Virus record (IMG/VR): IMGVR_UViG_3300006880_000022
Location: 1 to 52,034 of that record
Source: a virus
Length of the DNA stretch: 52,034 nt
Reading direction: 5' to 3' (one strand)
Of the stretch, positions 33,598 through 50,805 are shown in pieces. A model generated the notes under the pieces. It made no database searches. It saw only the letters and a program-made list of their open reading frames with translations, and was not told where the DNA came from. Both the position numbers and the translations under genes were made by a program. Position 1 is the first letter of the stretch, and every line of letters starts with the position of its first letter.

Positions 33598-34053
33598 CTA
33601 ATCGAACAGCATGACGATTCTGACAACCGCCGACATAATGGCACCTCGGCCAGAGTTTGCGTCCATACCCTCTTCAAACTTTAAGGGCACTACCTTGACC
33701 ATTGACACACCCTGTATCCCCAGAGACTTACTCTGTGAAAACAGATCCTTTAAACTTAGATACATCTCTTTGACGCGGGCATTAGCCTGAGCTTGATTGT
33801 CCGCCGGCCAGTGCGACTCAATGAATACGGAGATATCAAAGGCTTCCCCATCGGGGTAACCCTCATACGGTACTACTCGCACAATCTCATTACCTAAGAC
33901 CCATTTTATATCACTAAACCAGATCAGTTCTTTAGGTAACCTATCCGTGTAAACCGAATCCCAAATTGCATCATCCTGATTCAATCTAGCGAACTGTGGC
34001 GCAGCTCTAGTGCGTTCTACCAATGCATCTTTTACTTCAAACGCAATGGTCAC
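33598..34053 (-). CDS. Tail terminator protein
   Basis: 151 residues from GTG, GTGA overlap with the connector gene. An alpha/beta pattern (VKDALVERTRA, FDISVFIESHW, ARVKEMYLSLKDLF) and the slot before the tube gene match the gpU-like tail terminator that caps the tube and joins it to the head. Confidence 0.6.
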   Translation of the reverse strand: MTIAFEVKDALVERTRAAPQFARLNQDDAIWDSVYTDRLPKELIWFSDIKWVLGNEIVRVVPYEGYPDGEAFDISVFIESHWPADNQAQANARVKEMYLSLKDLFSQSKSLGIQGVSMVKVVPLKFEEGMDANSGRGAIMSAVVRIVMLFD

Positions 34054-34934
34054 CCCACACCCCCTCTGGTGAGCTGGTGTTTATCAAGCACCACATCAAT
34101 ATCAGGGTCACCTACCCACGATCCACCGCGACCTGGAGTAGCCAAACTGAATGTTCCAAGCTCCGTCTGTTGCGTAGTTGCACGTCGATCAATACGTCCA
34201 GAGTCATCGATCAGCATATTACGAGCACGTTTGAGCGCGGCCCTTCTGATACGTACCGGTGGACTATTAGCCCCGTATTCATATTCGAGCACGATATTAG
34301 GGACAGATGATGCCGGCCAGACAAGCCCAGCCTTGAGCACCAAGATAAATGCATCATCGTCATCCGTAACTAAAAAGCCATCCTCCACCCAAGAGCTCTG
34401 GTCAACGTCATTTACCAATAAGGTAAGCGCTATTCGGGGCTCGGGCTTGCTCAAAACCAAGGGGTAATTAGTACCATTGCCCTGGAACAACTGACGATTA
34501 AAGCGTGGACGAAACGCACGACCACAGATATCTTCAAACTCCCTTTCAACCTCTTCTCTGACTTCGATTAGCTCTGAGTCAGGGAACCTGGTGGTATTCT
34601 CCAGTCCCGGTTTTGCGCGCAAGGCGGGGATGTCGAAGATAAACCCTCCAACAATCTCGATGAGATCATCAGCCATTACAGGGACACCATCCTTGATACC
34701 TTCGGCCAACACAGTAAGCTCATTGAGCAAAGCCTGTGGGGCTACAGGCCAGGTATATATCCCCACGCCCGTATGAGTAGCTGTACCAGAGGTCAGTAAG
34801 CTACCATCCGCTTTGTTAACTGTCACACTACACGTACCATCTAAGTCGAATGGAATACCCTGAGCATCAGTAAAGGTAATCTGAATGGTCGCAGGTGTAT
34901 TCCTAAGTATGCTGCGCGGAAGAATCTGCGCCAT
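34050..34934 (-). CDS. Head-tail connector with Ig-like N-terminal domain
   Basis: 294 residues (second ATG, six bases after AAAGGGG). The first 90 residues look like an Ig-like beta sandwich (ILRNTPATIQITFTDAQG...). The rest (FPDSELIEVREEVEREFEDICGRAF, then RIRRAALKRARNML) matches gp6-type head-tail adaptors with their helical dimer face. The added Ig domain probably displays on the neck surface. Confidence 0.6.
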   Translation of the reverse strand: MAQILPRSILRNTPATIQITFTDAQGIPFDLDGTCSVTVNKADGSLLTSGTATHTGVGIYTWPVAPQALLNELTVLAEGIKDGVPVMADDLIEIVGGFIFDIPALRAKPGLENTTRFPDSELIEVREEVEREFEDICGRAFRPRFNRQLFQGNGTNYPLVLSKPEPRIALTLLVNDVDQSSWVEDGFLVTDDDDAFILVLKAGLVWPASSVPNIVLEYEYGANSPPVRIRRAALKRARNMLIDDSGRIDRRATTQQTELGTFSLATPGRGGSWVGDPDIDVVLDKHQLTRGGVG

Positions 34935-34950
34935 CATTCACCCCTTTCAA

Positions 34951-35832
34951 TTAAGATACCCAAGCGGACCACACCACCGTGCCGTTGATACCGTGCACTA
35001 GCACTCGATATTCGTAGTCCACACCAGAAGCTGGAGTGTAATCGTCATAGAACGCGAGAGATTGAACCACACCAACTGTCATCACACCCTGCGCAGACAG
35101 ATTTGCAGCATTAGTTAGTGGCTTTGCCACCATATTTGACTGGGCAGAGATTGCCGATGATGCATTGGGCCCTGTCCTACCAATGACGGTAAGCCCGGAC
35201 TGGGCACTAAGCGCAGCCTGCCCAGCGATTCTAAGTGGCCAGAATGATGCGGAAATACCAAGCCGTGTGCTCGCCGTGGGACAATCCATTGAGTCCACAC
35301 CAGAGGCGCCAGGACCCCGGCGCTCTTCGAAACACGAACCGCTGGACGAGGGGGTTGCTACCTCGATAACCTCAAGGAATCCAGCGGGAGGGTTCCATGA
35401 ACCTGTAGCAGAAACCGTACCACAACAAATAAGCAAAGACTCAGGTGCGGGCAGGTCAATTGAATGGGTCTCTATCTCCGACCCAGTTAAACCAGACTCA
35501 TACTCGATGGAATCATGTAATGGATCAAATGGGTCAACGCCTCGGAAAATGAATACCCGGGCAGCCATACTGGCACCATTGGCAGTAAAAGTATAGCTAC
35601 CAGGCTCGGAGCCTCCGGCTATCTTAAATACCAGAGCGTTGCGATAACCGTTTCTAGAATTCTGTTGAACAATGGTCCAACCACTAGGCACACTGTCTAA
35701 CGATGTTGGGCCACCTACCCAGATGACGTGAGAAAGTAGAAGGTCACCAGTAGTAGTACCAGACGGTTTACCCGGAGAAATAGTGTCGTCGCCACTGCCT
35801 AGGGTACCAACGCCTTGCCCGGTAATAGCCAC
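34951..35832 (-). CDS. Head-region beta protein, short-repeat paralogue
   Basis: 293 residues from GTG. The N-terminal 180 residues are a jelly-roll-like domain (GDLLL..V, PSGWTIV, VFKIAGGSEPGSYTFT) homologous to the next gene upstream. It is followed by about three degenerate copies of the 20-residue repeat (ALSAQSGL, AISAQSNM, NLSAQGVM) and a fibronectin-like end (YRVLVHGINGTVVWSAW). The GRTGP signature is shared with one repeat of the longer paralogue. Likely a head or neck surface protein. Confidence 0.55.
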   Translation of the reverse strand: MAITGQGVGTLGSGDDTISPGKPSGTTTGDLLLSHVIWVGGPTSLDSVPSGWTIVQQNSRNGYRNALVFKIAGGSEPGSYTFTANGASMAARVFIFRGVDPFDPLHDSIEYESGLTGSEIETHSIDLPAPESLLICCGTVSATGSWNPPAGFLEVIEVATPSSSGSCFEERRGPGASGVDSMDCPTASTRLGISASFWPLRIAGQAALSAQSGLTVIGRTGPNASSAISAQSNMVAKPLTNAANLSAQGVMTVGVVQSLAFYDDYTPASGVDYEYRVLVHGINGTVVWSAWVS

Positions 35833-35844
35833 GTTTATACCCCC

Positions 35845-37545
35845 TTAGTTGGTGCGAACACGAGACACACCAGTTAATCCCCCAGGGGGGTTGTCTCCCG
35901 AGAGTTTCGCGAATCGTCGCCTCACTGGCCTTAGCACAAACATCTTACTAATCGCTGAAAGTGAAGCACTGAAGAATACATCACCGGTGACCCGGCCAAT
36001 AGCAAGTAGTGAAGACTCACCCTGCAATTGACTAGTACTAATTACACGAACATCAGCAAGCACGGTCAATGAGGTCTGAGAACTTAGCTGAGCTAATCCG
36101 ATAACCGAAACAGTACCAAGTGCAATTAGACTGCTTTGTCCAGAAAGGGCACTCGTCCCAAAGGAACTTACTACAGCCTGAGCTGTTAGTGTGCTCTCCG
36201 TAGATAGTGCTGCTCTAGCTCCGCCGAGCGTAGCCGCACACGTAAGGGATGACTGCCCATCCAATGGAGCGACAGCAAAGACCTTTACGCGTGCTGCGAC
36301 AATAAGTGAGCTATCGGCGGCAAGGTTAGCTTGGCTAAGGACCTTGACCACGCTGGTCGATATCAACGATGATTGTGCACTGAGCGCACTTAAAGCAGAG
36401 GGACCACGCCGACCAACGGTAATTGCAGAAGACTCAGCGACCAATGCCGATTGAGCGAAGCTATGAACTGTCGCAGCTAACGTCAAAGAAGTCTCAGAGC
36501 TTAGCGGTGCCGAACCTGGTACCTTGACATTACCAATAGCCACTAGGCTAGACTCAGAGGTCAGTGCTGCGGAGGCTTCCTTACGGACAGCACCGGCAGC
36601 AATCAATAAGCTTTCCGAGGATAAAGCACTAACAGCAAAGGTCTGAACCTTTGAAGTAGATACCAAGCTCGATTGGCTACTCAGTGCTGAGGCTGCAAAT
36701 ACCGTATCCTTGGCAGTGACAATTAGCGAAGACTCACTCACCAGTGCAGCGGCACCGAGCTTAACTGGAATACCAGTGGCAGTTAATGAACTGTCCGCCG
36801 CAAGCGCAGCACTACCCTCGACGACAGTTGCGGTAACCTCTCGTACCCGAATGAATAACTCAGGGCCAGCAACGTTGGTAGCAGTGGCCGGGACAGTGGC
36901 TGTGTGTGTTGGTGCTGCCGTACCACTGCCAGCGGTACAAGACTGTGGGGCACCACGTACAGCCATATCATTACCTAGAGTGGTTTCATTATATGGCGTA
37001 TTGCTCAGGTCGAATGATAAAGTACAACCGGTAAGCGTTTGAGATTCAGAGGTCCAAGCCCCCGAAGTCGCATCAGTGGGAATAGCACAAGCTGTCAGGA
37101 GCTTGTCACCCGAGGCCATTTGAATGGTCTGACCGGCGGTCACAGACCAGCTCGACCCGGCCGAGTCATCCGAACCATTGGCTACGGCAATGCTATAGAC
37201 ACCACTCGTTGCCCTACATTGGTAGATAAACCCACCGGCAACACTGGGCGAGTTACCAACCGTAACGTCTAGAGTCCCGGATTCGCTACCCGTGGCAACC
37301 TTATAGAAGACTTTGATTTTCAACGGCCCGGTATCAACACCAACCGCGCCAGTACCACCGGTCTTTTCTCCGTTTGTCGGATCAGTCCATCCGCCGGGAG
37401 TTGTAATAGTAGATGTATCAGGCTTTACCGCTACTATAGCAATAAGTATGTCCCCGGCCGATACAGTAGGGTAAGGAATAGCAAGGGGGGAGGGAGTGGC
37501 ATCGAAAACTGGGGTACCAACAGGGCCAATGTATGTTAGCGACAT
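35845..37545 (-). CDS. Head-region repeat fibre protein
   Basis: 566 residues from ATG 37545 (GGAGAGGGT upstream; the TTG 15 bases earlier lies within the ribosome site). The N-terminal 240 residues are jelly-roll-like (VSAGDILIAIVAV, PGGWTDP, FYKVATGSESGTLDV). Then 14-15 tandem repeats of exactly 20 residues follow, consensus SALSxxSSLxxxAxVxxFAx. The basic tail reads RPVRRRFAKL. It lies between capsid and connector genes, so a capsid-displayed fibre of beta-solenoid type is proposed. Confidence 0.6.
   Translation of the reverse strand: MSLTYIGPVGTPVFDATPSPLAIPYPTVSAGDILIAIVAVKPDTSTITTPGGWTDPTNGEKTGGTGAVGVDTGPLKIKVFYKVATGSESGTLDVTVGNSPSVAGGFIYQCRATSGVYSIAVANGSDDSAGSSWSVTAGQTIQMASGDKLLTACAIPTDATSGAWTSESQTLTGCTLSFDLSNTPYNETTLGNDMAVRGAPQSCTAGSGTAAPTHTATVPATATNVAGPELFIRVREVTATVVEGSAALAADSSLTATGIPVKLGAAALVSESSLIVTAKDTVFAASALSSQSSLVSTSKVQTFAVSALSSESLLIAAGAVRKEASAALTSESSLVAIGNVKVPGSAPLSSETSLTLAATVHSFAQSALVAESSAITVGRRGPSALSALSAQSSLISTSVVKVLSQANLAADSSLIVAARVKVFAVAPLDGQSSLTCAATLGGARAALSTESTLTAQAVVSSFGTSALSGQSSLIALGTVSVIGLAQLSSQTSLTVLADVRVISTSQLQGESSLLAIGRVTGDVFFSASLSAISKMFVLRPVRRRFAKLSGDNPPGGLTGVSRVRTN
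35940..36813 (-). repeat. Tandem 60-bp coding repeats (20 residues)
   Basis: Within the fibre gene the ALS..SSL motif recurs every 20 residues for about 14 units, with only one or two units off by a residue. Codon use differs between units, so the array is old and kept by selection on the protein rather than freshly amplified. Fixed spacing implies one structural coil per unit. Confidence 0.75.
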
Positions 37546-37563: not shown

Positions 37564-37950
37564 CTAGCTAATCGTCAAATCAAGCTCTCCAGCCAAAACG
37601 GTAAACGTGTCACCGGAGTTGGTTACCTTGCTCGCGGTCAGCGCGCCATGCCAGAGACGGACTGGGGTACCAGCACTATCCCAAATAGCAACGTGCGTAA
37701 CCGTAGCGGCAGGCATATTAGTAAAGTTGACATCAGCCGTGTTAGCCGTAGCACCACCAGACGCAGCAGAAAACGCTATATTCTGTCGGGCATAAGAACC
37801 ACCGGTCACCTCGGTACCCGTCGCGGAATCAGAAGGGGCCGATGTGTATAGCGCAAGCTTTAACGACGTTGTCGGACGTGTTGGCGAACCAACACCTAGG
37901 ATCCAATCAAGGATCAGATTCTCAGCGGTATCGGTGAGGTTATCAGCCAT
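37564..37950 (-). CDS. Small head/tail beta protein
   Basis: 128 residues, strong GGAGGGGG upstream. LKLALYTSAPSDSATGTEVTGGSYARQ, then VTHVAIWDSAGTPVRLWHG is a widespread phage family often labelled tail-fibre-like or decoration. Directly downstream of the major capsid gene, so a capsid decoration role is favoured here. Confidence 0.6.
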   Translation of the reverse strand: MADNLTDTAENLILDWILGVGSPTRPTTSLKLALYTSAPSDSATGTEVTGGSYARQNIAFSAASGGATANTADVNFTNMPAATVTHVAIWDSAGTPVRLWHGALTASKVTNSGDTFTVLAGELDLTIS

Positions 37951-38025: not shown

Positions 38026-39387
38026 CTACGTAGTAGAAGTGAACTTAATCGAGGCGCCCGTGTCAAACAACTTGCCGTCCAGATACATGACACCCTTGAT
38101 ACCAACGAGATCATTCTCGAAGTAAACGTCATTAGAACGCTCCACCCGCATAGTGCCAACCACACGAGCGTAATACTTAGAGAAGTCTGCAAAGATGGCC
38201 TGAATGGTACCGTTAGTGGCAGCGGTGGCCATGTCAGGGTTAGTCAATACCGGATAACCAAGAATGCTGTCAGGCTGAGCCGGATCCTTTACCGCATCAT
38301 AAATGAAGTGGTTAGCCGGATCCTTAATCAATCGAACCTTCTTGACAATGGCACGGTTCATCATGAACTTGGCATTACGCGCGTACTTTTCACCGATACC
38401 ATAGATAAGTTCGATAATATCATCGTGCTTGGAAATACCACCAAGGGCTACCGAACCGGTAGGTGCATAGTTGAGAGTAGTCTGCGTAACAATACCACCC
38501 GGACTCTGCGCACCGGCAGTACCAAGGGTAAGGTCAAGAGCAGTTACCGAACCAAGCACATCACCGAGATCCTCAGCCATAAGCGACTCACCATCGAAGA
38601 CAGTGAAATCAGCGAATTCACGAGAAGCCTGGATAATCTGAGCATACTTAATAGCACCCAGAGTCTCAGTCGTGAACGAGCCCTTAGTCTTGGCAATGGT
38701 CGCGGCTTCCTGAGACACAACCGTAGTACGGTTGGCCGCAGGGCTGGACGCCTTGACCGATCGTACCTTCTTAGGCAAAGTCAGAACTTCATTTCGCTCA
38801 GTGGTAATAATGCGAATACCCGACTCAAAGATCGGGTTGGTCGCTACCAGCGCACGATAAAGCTCCCTGACGAACGTACCAGGGTTGATTTCCTGACCTT
38901 CACCGGCAGCCGCAGACGCAGAACCACCGACGTTAAAGAACACCTCGGCGCGTTCCTCAGCCTCACGACCGTAACGACCGGACAGCGCCAGCGTATGGCG
39001 AACATCCGACAGCTTCAATTCAAAGCCCTGCTTATCGCCGGAAACTACAGAACGAAGCTCTTCCGAAAACTCCTTGTCAACCTTTGCACGACCAGAAAGA
39101 TCCCGCCTACCACCACCACTGCCACGCCGTTCTAGCGCAGCCTTAGCCGCAGCTTCCTGCTCAGCCGTACGCTTCTCTTCCTCACGGTCAAATTCCTCAT
39201 TCCGGCGCTCACGATTGATCAGATCCTCATAACGATCAATATCCGCATTGGCACGGTTATACTTCTGATCGGCAGTTGCGATCTGCTCGTTAGTGAGACC
39301 TTCCTGCGCTGCCTCCTCCGCAGCGGCCCGCGCAGCCTGCACAGCCTGCATCCGCTTCTCAGATAGATCCTTAATTCGATCAGACAT
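38026..39387 (-). CDS. Major capsid protein, HK97 fold
   Basis: 453 residues from ATG 39387 (AAAGGA upstream). The first 110 residues are a charged coiled-coil scaffold (delta) domain (EKRMQAVQAARAAAEEAAQEG), which the prohead protease would remove. The remainder has the HK97 pattern: N-arm, E-loop region (PKKVRSVKASSPAANRTTVV), spine helix and a VVGTMRVERSNDVYFENDLVGIKG P-domain end. Confidence 0.85.
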   Translation of the reverse strand: MSDRIKDLSEKRMQAVQAARAAAEEAAQEGLTNEQIATADQKYNRANADIDRYEDLINRERRNEEFDREEEKRTAEQEAAAKAALERRGSGGGRRDLSGRAKVDKEFSEELRSVVSGDKQGFELKLSDVRHTLALSGRYGREAEERAEVFFNVGGSASAAAGEGQEINPGTFVRELYRALVATNPIFESGIRIITTERNEVLTLPKKVRSVKASSPAANRTTVVSQEAATIAKTKGSFTTETLGAIKYAQIIQASREFADFTVFDGESLMAEDLGDVLGSVTALDLTLGTAGAQSPGGIVTQTTLNYAPTGSVALGGISKHDDIIELIYGIGEKYARNAKFMMNRAIVKKVRLIKDPANHFIYDAVKDPAQPDSILGYPVLTNPDMATAATNGTIQAIFADFSKYYARVVGTMRVERSNDVYFENDLVGIKGVMYLDGKLFDTGASIKFTSTT

Positions 39388-39466
39388 ATTAGCTGATCCT
39401 TTCTGTTTAGCTCCCTGTGGAGCGAGATACATATTCAAATGTGGGTGATCTCTCGGCCCACGGGAG

Positions 39467-49394: not shown

Positions 49395-49576
49395 CTGAGC
49401 ACTTTCTCCATATAGGTAAAGAATTTGGGGACGGGCAATACGTCAAATTCGAGATGGTGCCGACCAACGTCGGATTCATGGTGCACGCACCGGGCGTTAT
49501 TCCATTCGGTGCAGCCAACGTGCGGGAGGCAAAAGACATACTGTATTCCGTACTGTGCAAAGAACAGGAGGACTAG
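49385..49576 (+). CDS. Small beta-rich protein
   Basis: 63 residues from ATG 49385, after GAGAGGG, overlapping the previous gene by ten bases. Beta strands (VKFEMVPTNVGFMVHAPG) and a C-terminal helix. Last gene before the GH16 promoter. Function unknown. Confidence 0.5.
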   Translation: MSMTEHFLHIGKEFGDGQYVKFEMVPTNVGFMVHAPGVIPFGAANVREAKDILYSVLCKEQED

Positions 49577-49601
49577 ACACCCCCGACCCGGGGTGTATAA
49601 T
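49574..49601 (+). promoter_or_regulatory. Strong sigma-70-like promoter with internal dyad
   Basis: TAGACA (49574-49579, five of six to TTGACA), 16 bp, then a perfect TATAAT (49596-49601). ACACCCC (49577-49583) and GGGGTGT (49590-49596) form a 7-bp inverted repeat lying exactly between and touching the two boxes. It looks like an operator that blocks polymerase when bound. It drives the GH16 gene independently of the operon. Confidence 0.7.
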
Positions 49602-49638
49602 GTTGGGCGACCAACCCGGGTCAAGTGAAGGGGTACAC

Positions 49639-50805
49639 ATGAGGTATAAGGGGCGATTTGCTGTCGCCTTGTTGGCAGCCCTGACTACCGTGGGCCTAGT
49701 CGCGCAGTCAGGGCTGGCAACGCCAGCCGGCACAGTCGACTACACCACGCTAGCGCCGATCACAGTCCAAGCTTTCGGGCGGGACATTCAAGCACCGACA
49801 TCGAACGATTCGATTCTCTTCGGTGCTCGACTGGTCGCGGCCACCCCGGTTCACTTCGATGAGCTGGTATTCGCCATTCGTGGGCCGGCTGGTCAGAACT
49901 ACGACGTGGGCGATAGGGACGGTTACGACCTCAGTACGGCTCAGCAGACGTTTACCGCGTCGCGGCCAGCTCTGCCGGTGGGTAACGGCTACACGGTGTG
50001 GCTAGCGCACCGTATCGGATCGACATGGACGGACCTAGCGCCTAATCCGGCGCAGACGTTCAATGTGATTGCGGCGCCTCCACCAGGTGGCGGGCCGGCA
50101 TTGCCCGGACCGGCGGGACCGTGGACACTGCAATTTTCCGATGAATTCAGCGGAACAGCAGTAGATACCACTAAGTGGGGATTCCAGTCATCGGCGGAGG
50201 CCCTATGGTGCTCATCGCCATTCGGTACCGGTAACCCGAATAACAAGCAACTCGAATTCGACCGTCCGCAGAATGCCTCGGTGGCCAATGGCAACCTGAC
50301 CATTACAGCTCAGCGAGGCAATATCACGGCCTGTGGTCGAACCTACGGCTGGACATCATCTCTCCTGACCTCCGCACCCTCGTACGCCTTCCGCTACGGC
50401 TACATCGAGATCCGAGCTGACCTCCCCGACCCACGGGGATTCTGGCCGGCATTCTGGACATGGCAGGCGGCCGGCAACAATGTGTGGACCGAGACTGATG
50501 TATTCGAGTATTACTCGGATAATCACAATGCGTTGTACCTCTCCCAGCACGCCGGTTCGGGTGGCGGATGCATCATTGATCCTGCTTTTGACCCGTCCAC
50601 CGGGATGCACACGTACGGCGCTGATATTCAGTCGACCGGTACGCGGTTCTACGTCGATGGGCAACTCGTCTGCACGGCGTCGGGATCACCGACCGGCAAC
50701 ACCAACATCTTGGTGGACATGTTCGTGTTCGCGGACGTGCCACCCCTGGCCGGCACCAACAGTGCTACAATGGTCGTAGATTACGTGCGAGCCTGGCAGC
50801 ACTGA
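49639..50805 (+). CDS. Secreted GH16 beta-glucanase (moron)
   Basis: 388 residues from ATG 49639 with GAAGGGG upstream; longer readings pass through the promoter. Signal peptide: MRYKGR, hydrophobic FAVALLAALTTVGLVA, then small residues near 26-30. Residues about 35-140 look Ig-like, followed by a PPPGGG-type linker. The GH16 domain has LQFSDEFSG at its start, YIEIRADLPDPRGFWPAFW and catalytic ETDVFE (E285, D287, E290). It would cleave beta-1,3 or mixed beta-glucans outside the cell. Its own promoter and terminator and a more GC-rich composition mark it as acquired. Confidence 0.85.
   Translation: MRYKGRFAVALLAALTTVGLVAQSGLATPAGTVDYTTLAPITVQAFGRDIQAPTSNDSILFGARLVAATPVHFDELVFAIRGPAGQNYDVGDRDGYDLSTAQQTFTASRPALPVGNGYTVWLAHRIGSTWTDLAPNPAQTFNVIAAPPPGGGPALPGPAGPWTLQFSDEFSGTAVDTTKWGFQSSAEALWCSSPFGTGNPNNKQLEFDRPQNASVANGNLTITAQRGNITACGRTYGWTSSLLTSAPSYAFRYGYIEIRADLPDPRGFWPAFWTWQAAGNNVWTETDVFEYYSDNHNALYLSQHAGSGGGCIIDPAFDPSTGMHTYGADIQSTGTRFYVDGQLVCTASGSPTGNTNILVDMFVFADVPPLAGTNSATMVVDYVRAWQH

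Follow-up and report, generated by a model that had tools for sequence, protein, structure and literature searches.

Background

Fiber I of the Ralstonia podophage GP4 (PDB 8jou), which is located at the tail vertex, is the one solved relative of the genes described here. In this fibre an elongated rope protein reportedly links five gp80 dimers, an account attributed to Zheng et al. (J Mol Biol, 2023), and the ten copies of chain a in 8jou are consistent with this number. The bead protein has given its name to the Pfam family PF23140 (Gp80), 'Podophage GP4 fiber I protein'. A comparable module was described in 2026 in the Alishewanella siphophage LSH1 (PMC13243795): its genes gp34, gp35 and gp36 are found together and relatives can do without them, gp35 is a GP4-like bead, gp34 is a payload with a lyase-like beta-helix and an unexplained C-terminal part, and the third gene encodes an Ig fold. 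The same paper states that the beads are dimers in both GP4 and LSH1 (8JOU_g being a dimer) and that the GP4 fibril joins an adhesin to the tail collar. Finally, the neck fibre of the cyanophage A-1(L) (gp80-gp82) is also a bead chain, with about 14 gp81 trimers and end pieces (PMC10966104); its beads are modelled as trimers joining head to tail, without a repeat rope. The likeness to this last fibre is one of description only and the name gp80 is shared by coincidence with PF23140 Gp80; we considered whether the present genes belong to the A-1(L) type and dropped the idea, as there was no evidence of relation.

Gene order around the repeat proteins

The window, that is the whole stretch of DNA that was analysed, is a single IMG/VR record of 52,034 bases (IMGVR_UViG_3300006880_000022). 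On its minus strand one reads successively the portal, the protease, the major capsid protein, a PF23140 gene, the two repeat proteins (A and B), a head-tail adaptor, neck and tail-tube genes, and a tape-measure protein of 1293 residues. The tape-measure gene and this order mean that the virus is most likely a siphophage, which sets it apart, together with its HK97 capsid, from the podophage GP4. The Pfam and phrog assignments thus bear out the position proposed in the initial annotation for A and B, between the capsid and the connector genes. The features discussed below are the following, all on the minus strand:

38026..39438, minus: major capsid protein of HK97 type, upstream border of the cassette (PF05065, E 3.5e-41)
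37564..37950, minus: bead protein of the PF23140 Gp80 / phrog_240 family, 128 aa (Pfam, phrog and PDB profile matches)
35845..37545, minus: protein A, the long rope protein, 566 aa (ORF with ATG at 37545 and a purine-rich site upstream)
36817..37545, minus: N-terminal domain of A, residues 1-243, jelly-roll-like ('GD-L...P-GWT...YK-A'), probable payload (residues 17-218, E 1.5e-8)
35977..36813, minus: repeat region of A, residues 245-523, 14 units of 20 residues, one interval being 19 (autocorrelation, repeat HMM, chained profile)
35848..35976, minus: basic C-terminal tail of A, residues 524-566 (...RRRF...SRVR), possible anchor (pI 12)
34951..35832, minus: protein B, the short paralogue, 293 aa (ORF; N-terminal domain E 4.4e-21)
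35065..35220, minus: two or three degenerate units of B, residues 205-256 (phmmer against A, E 4.6e-7)
34050..34937, minus: head-tail adaptor, downstream border of the cassette and possible attachment site (phrog_442, E 1.3e-5)

A gene that the initial annotation had missed separates A from the capsid gene. It matches PF23140 over profile positions 2-128 of 128 with 111.7 bits (E 3.8e-32), well above the curated cut-off of 27 bits, and hence belongs to this family; it also matches phrog_240, annotated 'head protein' (E 9.9e-25), and its family profile matches chain a of PDB 8jou (E 1.1e-22). The bead of the window is therefore of the same Pfam family as that of GP4 fiber I. Protein A begins 18 bases downstream, the adjacency that one expects of a GP4-type rope.

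A related virus, L006, shows the same region without these genes. Its portal, protease, capsid, adaptor, neck and tube proteins are colinear with those of the window and 43-65% identical to them, while the adaptor directly follows the capsid gene and the bead, A and B are all absent; no match to PF23140 was obtained in the whole 50-kb record, which may be incomplete. Since the three genes were lost or gained together, this comparison supports a joint, non-essential function for them. The view that the repeats form part of an apparent cassette for a virion appendage is supported. The position of the cassette in the head module suggests attachment at the head or at the neck; in other phages, however, the bead and repeat genes are placed with tail or baseplate genes, and the GP4 fibre is at the tail vertex. 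The N-terminal part of the adaptor of the window looks Ig-like by eye, as it does in L006 and L008, which both lack the cassette.

The repeats of protein A and its paralogue

We computed the identity autocorrelation of the repeat region of A: it reaches 0.363 at a lag of 20 residues, 0.308 at 40 and 0.286 at 60, while the maximum over 2000 shuffles was 0.21 at any lag. A chained profile of 20 columns places 14 units between residues 245 and 523 with a score of 81, as against 5.9 for the best shuffle. A is thus an elongated protein built of units of about 20 residues, which is what we call a rope. The initial annotation had counted 14-15 units of exactly 20 residues: the repeats are real and 14 is the better count, but the spacing is nearly, not quite, exact, one of the intervals being 19.

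The units, in which Lys and Arg are scarce, share on average 38% identity in protein and 0.42 in DNA, and the identity in DNA is distributed unequally over codon positions (0.44, 0.51 and 0.32 for positions 1, 2 and 3). As second positions are the most conserved and third positions the least, these sequences indicate that the units are old and that the pattern is maintained by selection at the level of the protein rather than produced by a recent expansion of the DNA. No tandem array of DNA was detected over A when the whole virus was scanned with TRF.

Protein B carries the same N-terminal domain as A, a putative jelly roll, as had been proposed from inspection: a profile built without either protein, solely from relatives in Rhodococcus, Rhizobium and Mycobacterium phages, finds both (B at E 4.4e-21, A over residues 17-218 at E 1.5e-8), its best reversed decoy being at 0.22. 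The same domain is found in minor tail proteins of the phrog_3329 type in those phages; unlike A, its carriers there are mostly tail proteins and are devoid of the 20-residue units. The profile also found, in an Actinomycetes prophage (L118), a protein with the N-terminal domain of A followed by 3 units and with a bead gene directly upstream, so that by sequence the architecture of A recurs elsewhere. The second shared element that had been noticed, a GR.GP signature, is confirmed once in each protein and at the same place in the unit (GRRGP at residues 378-382 of A, GRTGP at 218-222 of B). The units of B are more elusive. A repeat HMM finds one unit (E 1.5e-4) and phmmer aligns residues 202-253 of B, signature included, with residues 362-416 of A (E 4.6e-7), while the chained profile gives a number of units which does not exceed that of shuffles. 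The initial count of about three units in B consequently receives weak support.

No match was obtained by tblastn against phages with A or with its N-terminal domain alone; scans of IMG/VR with A and B singly found just an identical fragment from the same virus; no curated Pfam or NCBIfam model covers the 20-residue units of A, B or other ropes. In the PDB, the alignment of the repeats retrieved one spurious match, a human protein, and no rope sequences were found. The C-terminal tail of A resembles, by eye, the tails of rope proteins in three other loci (L070, L181, L186).

Association of bead genes with a period of 20 residues

We gathered bead genes from two independent collections, IMG/VR and GTDB genomes, and scored the neighbouring ORFs for periodicity at lags of 8-44 residues against shuffles. 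In a first set of 84 bead genes (77 from IMG/VR and 7 from named phages), the best period was 20 or 40 for 41 of the 84 genes lying directly downstream of the bead, compared with 4/71 directly upstream and 1/70 at the second downstream position. For the bead genes of GTDB prophages, the same periods were found in 15 of 72 genes directly downstream, 9 of 60 at the second downstream position and 3 of 70 upstream. After removal of redundancy at 60% identity, a periodic protein is present among the three neighbours in 25 of 56 loci, as against 16 of 572 other ORFs of the same loci (Fisher p 7e-19); this comparison of three neighbours with single ORFs favours the pairing somewhat, and when single genes are compared the count is 17/51 (p 1e-11). 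At a strict 50% the excess directly downstream becomes marginal (7/26 versus 1/22, p 0.04). The bead genes were clustered greedily here, single linkage at 55% having merged nearly all of them. An unconstrained profile search over the neighbours was discarded, as it drifted to composition.

The consensus unit reads (A/S)A(S/T)(L/V/I)S(A/G)(A/T)(A/G)(T/S)(V/L)(S/T)Ax(G/A)xR(V/I)(R/A)xG: about 13 alternating residues are followed by a turn-like stretch. Among named phages, a repeat protein stands beside the bead gene in Burkholderia phages JC1 and BcepIL02, in Sinorhizobium phage PBC5 and in mycobacteriophages Daisy (gp33) and Faith1 (gp24); further pairs are found in DSL-LC06, C72C1 and two uncultured Manatee Spring phages. 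At lag 20, the z-score is 7.8 for BcepIL02 and 4.7 for JC1; that of BcepMigl, 3.5, is not significant alone. A unit profile built from A-like ropes gives no score above shuffles for the ropes of JC1, BcepMigl, Daisy and Faith1. This means that these ropes share their period with A, while a common origin is not thereby proven. In JC1, the bead protein gp53 was found associated with the virion by mass spectrometry, in a list from which the rope gp54 is absent (PMC9144972).

In Slickus01, a myophage of 141 kb related to the LSH1 module, a single ORF of at least 200 aa has a clearly significant period of 20 or 40 residues: it encodes the payload protein, of 2319 residues, two genes away from the only candidate bead gene (a weak match, E 0.0054). 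In this protein Asp, Phe and Val, and not Ala and Ser, abound in the units; the 20-residue period thus does not simply arise from a low-complexity composition.

For many bead genes, no repeat protein could be detected alongside. In one group (L025, L030, L035 and similar loci) the gene directly before the bead is capsid-like and encodes about 343 aa, and the bead is accompanied by a conserved protein of 114 aa but by no repeat protein; such loci suggest that beads may sometimes function with no rope. Directly behind the bead of Psychrobacillus phage PVJ1 (L021, 6393-7418), one protein combines weak repeat-like units with a baseplate domain (phrog_521, E 1.2e-35). In Faith1 and Daisy (L195, 4340-6628; L196, 2751-3953), the protein that holds the units also has a glycine-rich domain, of a kind typical for minor tail proteins. 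Many podophage ropes start with 'LDxLxxSLDxxxW' and finish with Trp repeats about 10 residues long (L095, 2804-3694; L056, 4384-5262; L017, 6389-8878), which could possibly be docking and capping elements; the starting motif is also seen inside the neighbouring stabilisation/nozzle-like protein.

Number of units and length of the rope

The Burkholderia relatives of GP4 resemble the window in that a protein with a 20-residue period follows the bead gene: the rope starts 2-8 bases after it in 13 of 13 IMG/VR loci. Counted by eye, the ropes of these phages contain roughly 8 to 12 units, and those of the BcepMigl type are shorter than those of the JC1 type by one exact unit of 20 residues and a block of about 3 units. 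Such unit-sized steps between related ropes fit well with the earlier suggestion that the length of the appendage is set by the number of repeats. If the rope of GP4 is similar to these, the ten Gp80 chains of its fiber suggest one unit per bead subunit and not per dimer, although this remains a guess by analogy. As an extended unit of 20 residues measures at most about 6.6 nm, the chain of beads carried by A could reach about 90 nm at most.

Discussion

We propose, with a probability of roughly 0.65 in our own estimate, that a bead-chain fibre of the virion is built by a single accessory cassette comprising Gp80, A and probably B. Gp80 dimers would be the beads, and the 20-residue units of A would make up an extended rope threading them; each unit would occupy either a single subunit of a bead or a whole dimer, so that the number of units would set the length of the fibre. 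The payload, carried at one end, would be the jelly-roll-like N-terminal domain, probably acting as a head that binds surfaces or glycans; the likely anchor in the virion would be the basic C-terminal tail. B would be either a second, short payload protein like A or a terminal or anchoring piece. The binding of units to beads, its stoichiometry, the polarity of the chain, the role in adhesion and the site of attachment are all points that we infer. Compared with GP4 fiber I, the rope of the window would differ by its fusion to a jelly-roll-like domain and by the presence of two paralogues.

This proposal must be weighed against an unlikely reading which follows the initial annotation: the units would form a beta-solenoid or a trimeric beta shaft on their own, as a spike on the capsid or the neck, and Gp80 would be merely a neighbouring base or decoration protein. 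The strict spacing of 20 residues and the pattern of about 13 alternating small and hydrophobic residues do suit repeated beta strands, and AlphaFold gave a beta helix for the corresponding part of LSH1 gp34 (PMC13243795). That model of a probable relative is, however, poor in confidence over the C-terminal part and is doubted by its authors; the units moreover offer few bulky positions to form a core, no relative was found in the PDB, and it would be left unexplained why bead genes accompany the repeats in many phages. The bead gene next door and the fibril of bead dimers in GP4 argue instead for an extended, bead-bound rope. We had also considered a helical head fibre of the phi29 type, which was dropped because the units look strand-like and no helical heptads are seen.

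A variant of the bead-chain fibre, to which we give an equally low probability, is that A and B are alternative ropes of two appendages, a long one and a short one, for example a head fibre and a neck fibre. Two paralogues with the same N-terminal domain and 14 versus about 3 units are what one would expect from it; yet the units of B are degenerate and barely detectable, and its C-terminus looks different, so B may rather be an anchor or a cap. Lastly, the repeats could be a flexible, largely disordered low-complexity linker from an N-terminal adhesin domain to the virion, in keeping with a region rich in Ser, Ala, Leu and Val and devoid of Trp, Tyr and Met and with the poor AlphaFold confidence for LSH1 gp34 (PMC13243795), but this is very improbable, as a mere linker needs no fixed unit, whereas a length of 20 was held through 14 old units, second codon positions are conserved above third ones, and changes of length include an exact whole unit.

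The bead-chain fibre suggests a wider generalisation, to which we would give somewhat less than an even chance: proteins with 20-residue units would form a widespread, unnamed class acting as a molecular ruler for Gp80 chains in podo-, sipho- and myophages and in many prophages, each unit docking one bead subunit. Their N-terminal tip domains (jelly roll, DNRLRE-like, LamG-like, lyase-like) would be interchangeable, so that the length of the appendage and its payload could evolve separately. If this were true, a large set of unannotated virion genes would receive a function, the question raised in the LSH1 paper of why a well-folded payload always adjoins a stretch that cannot be modelled would have a possible answer, and a simple rule would predict the fibre from the count of units. 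Such a rule would be directly testable in Faith1 and Daisy, which carry the pair of bead and rope and grow on Mycobacterium smegmatis.

Two further observations concern the window outside the cassette. Near the left end of the record, positions 312-517 contain AT-rich tandem repeats with periods of 37, 12 and 30. On the plus strand, positions 49555-50805 encode a protein of 416 aa that contains a domain of glycosyl hydrolase family 16 (PF00722, E 2e-13); such cargo is unusual in phages of this type.
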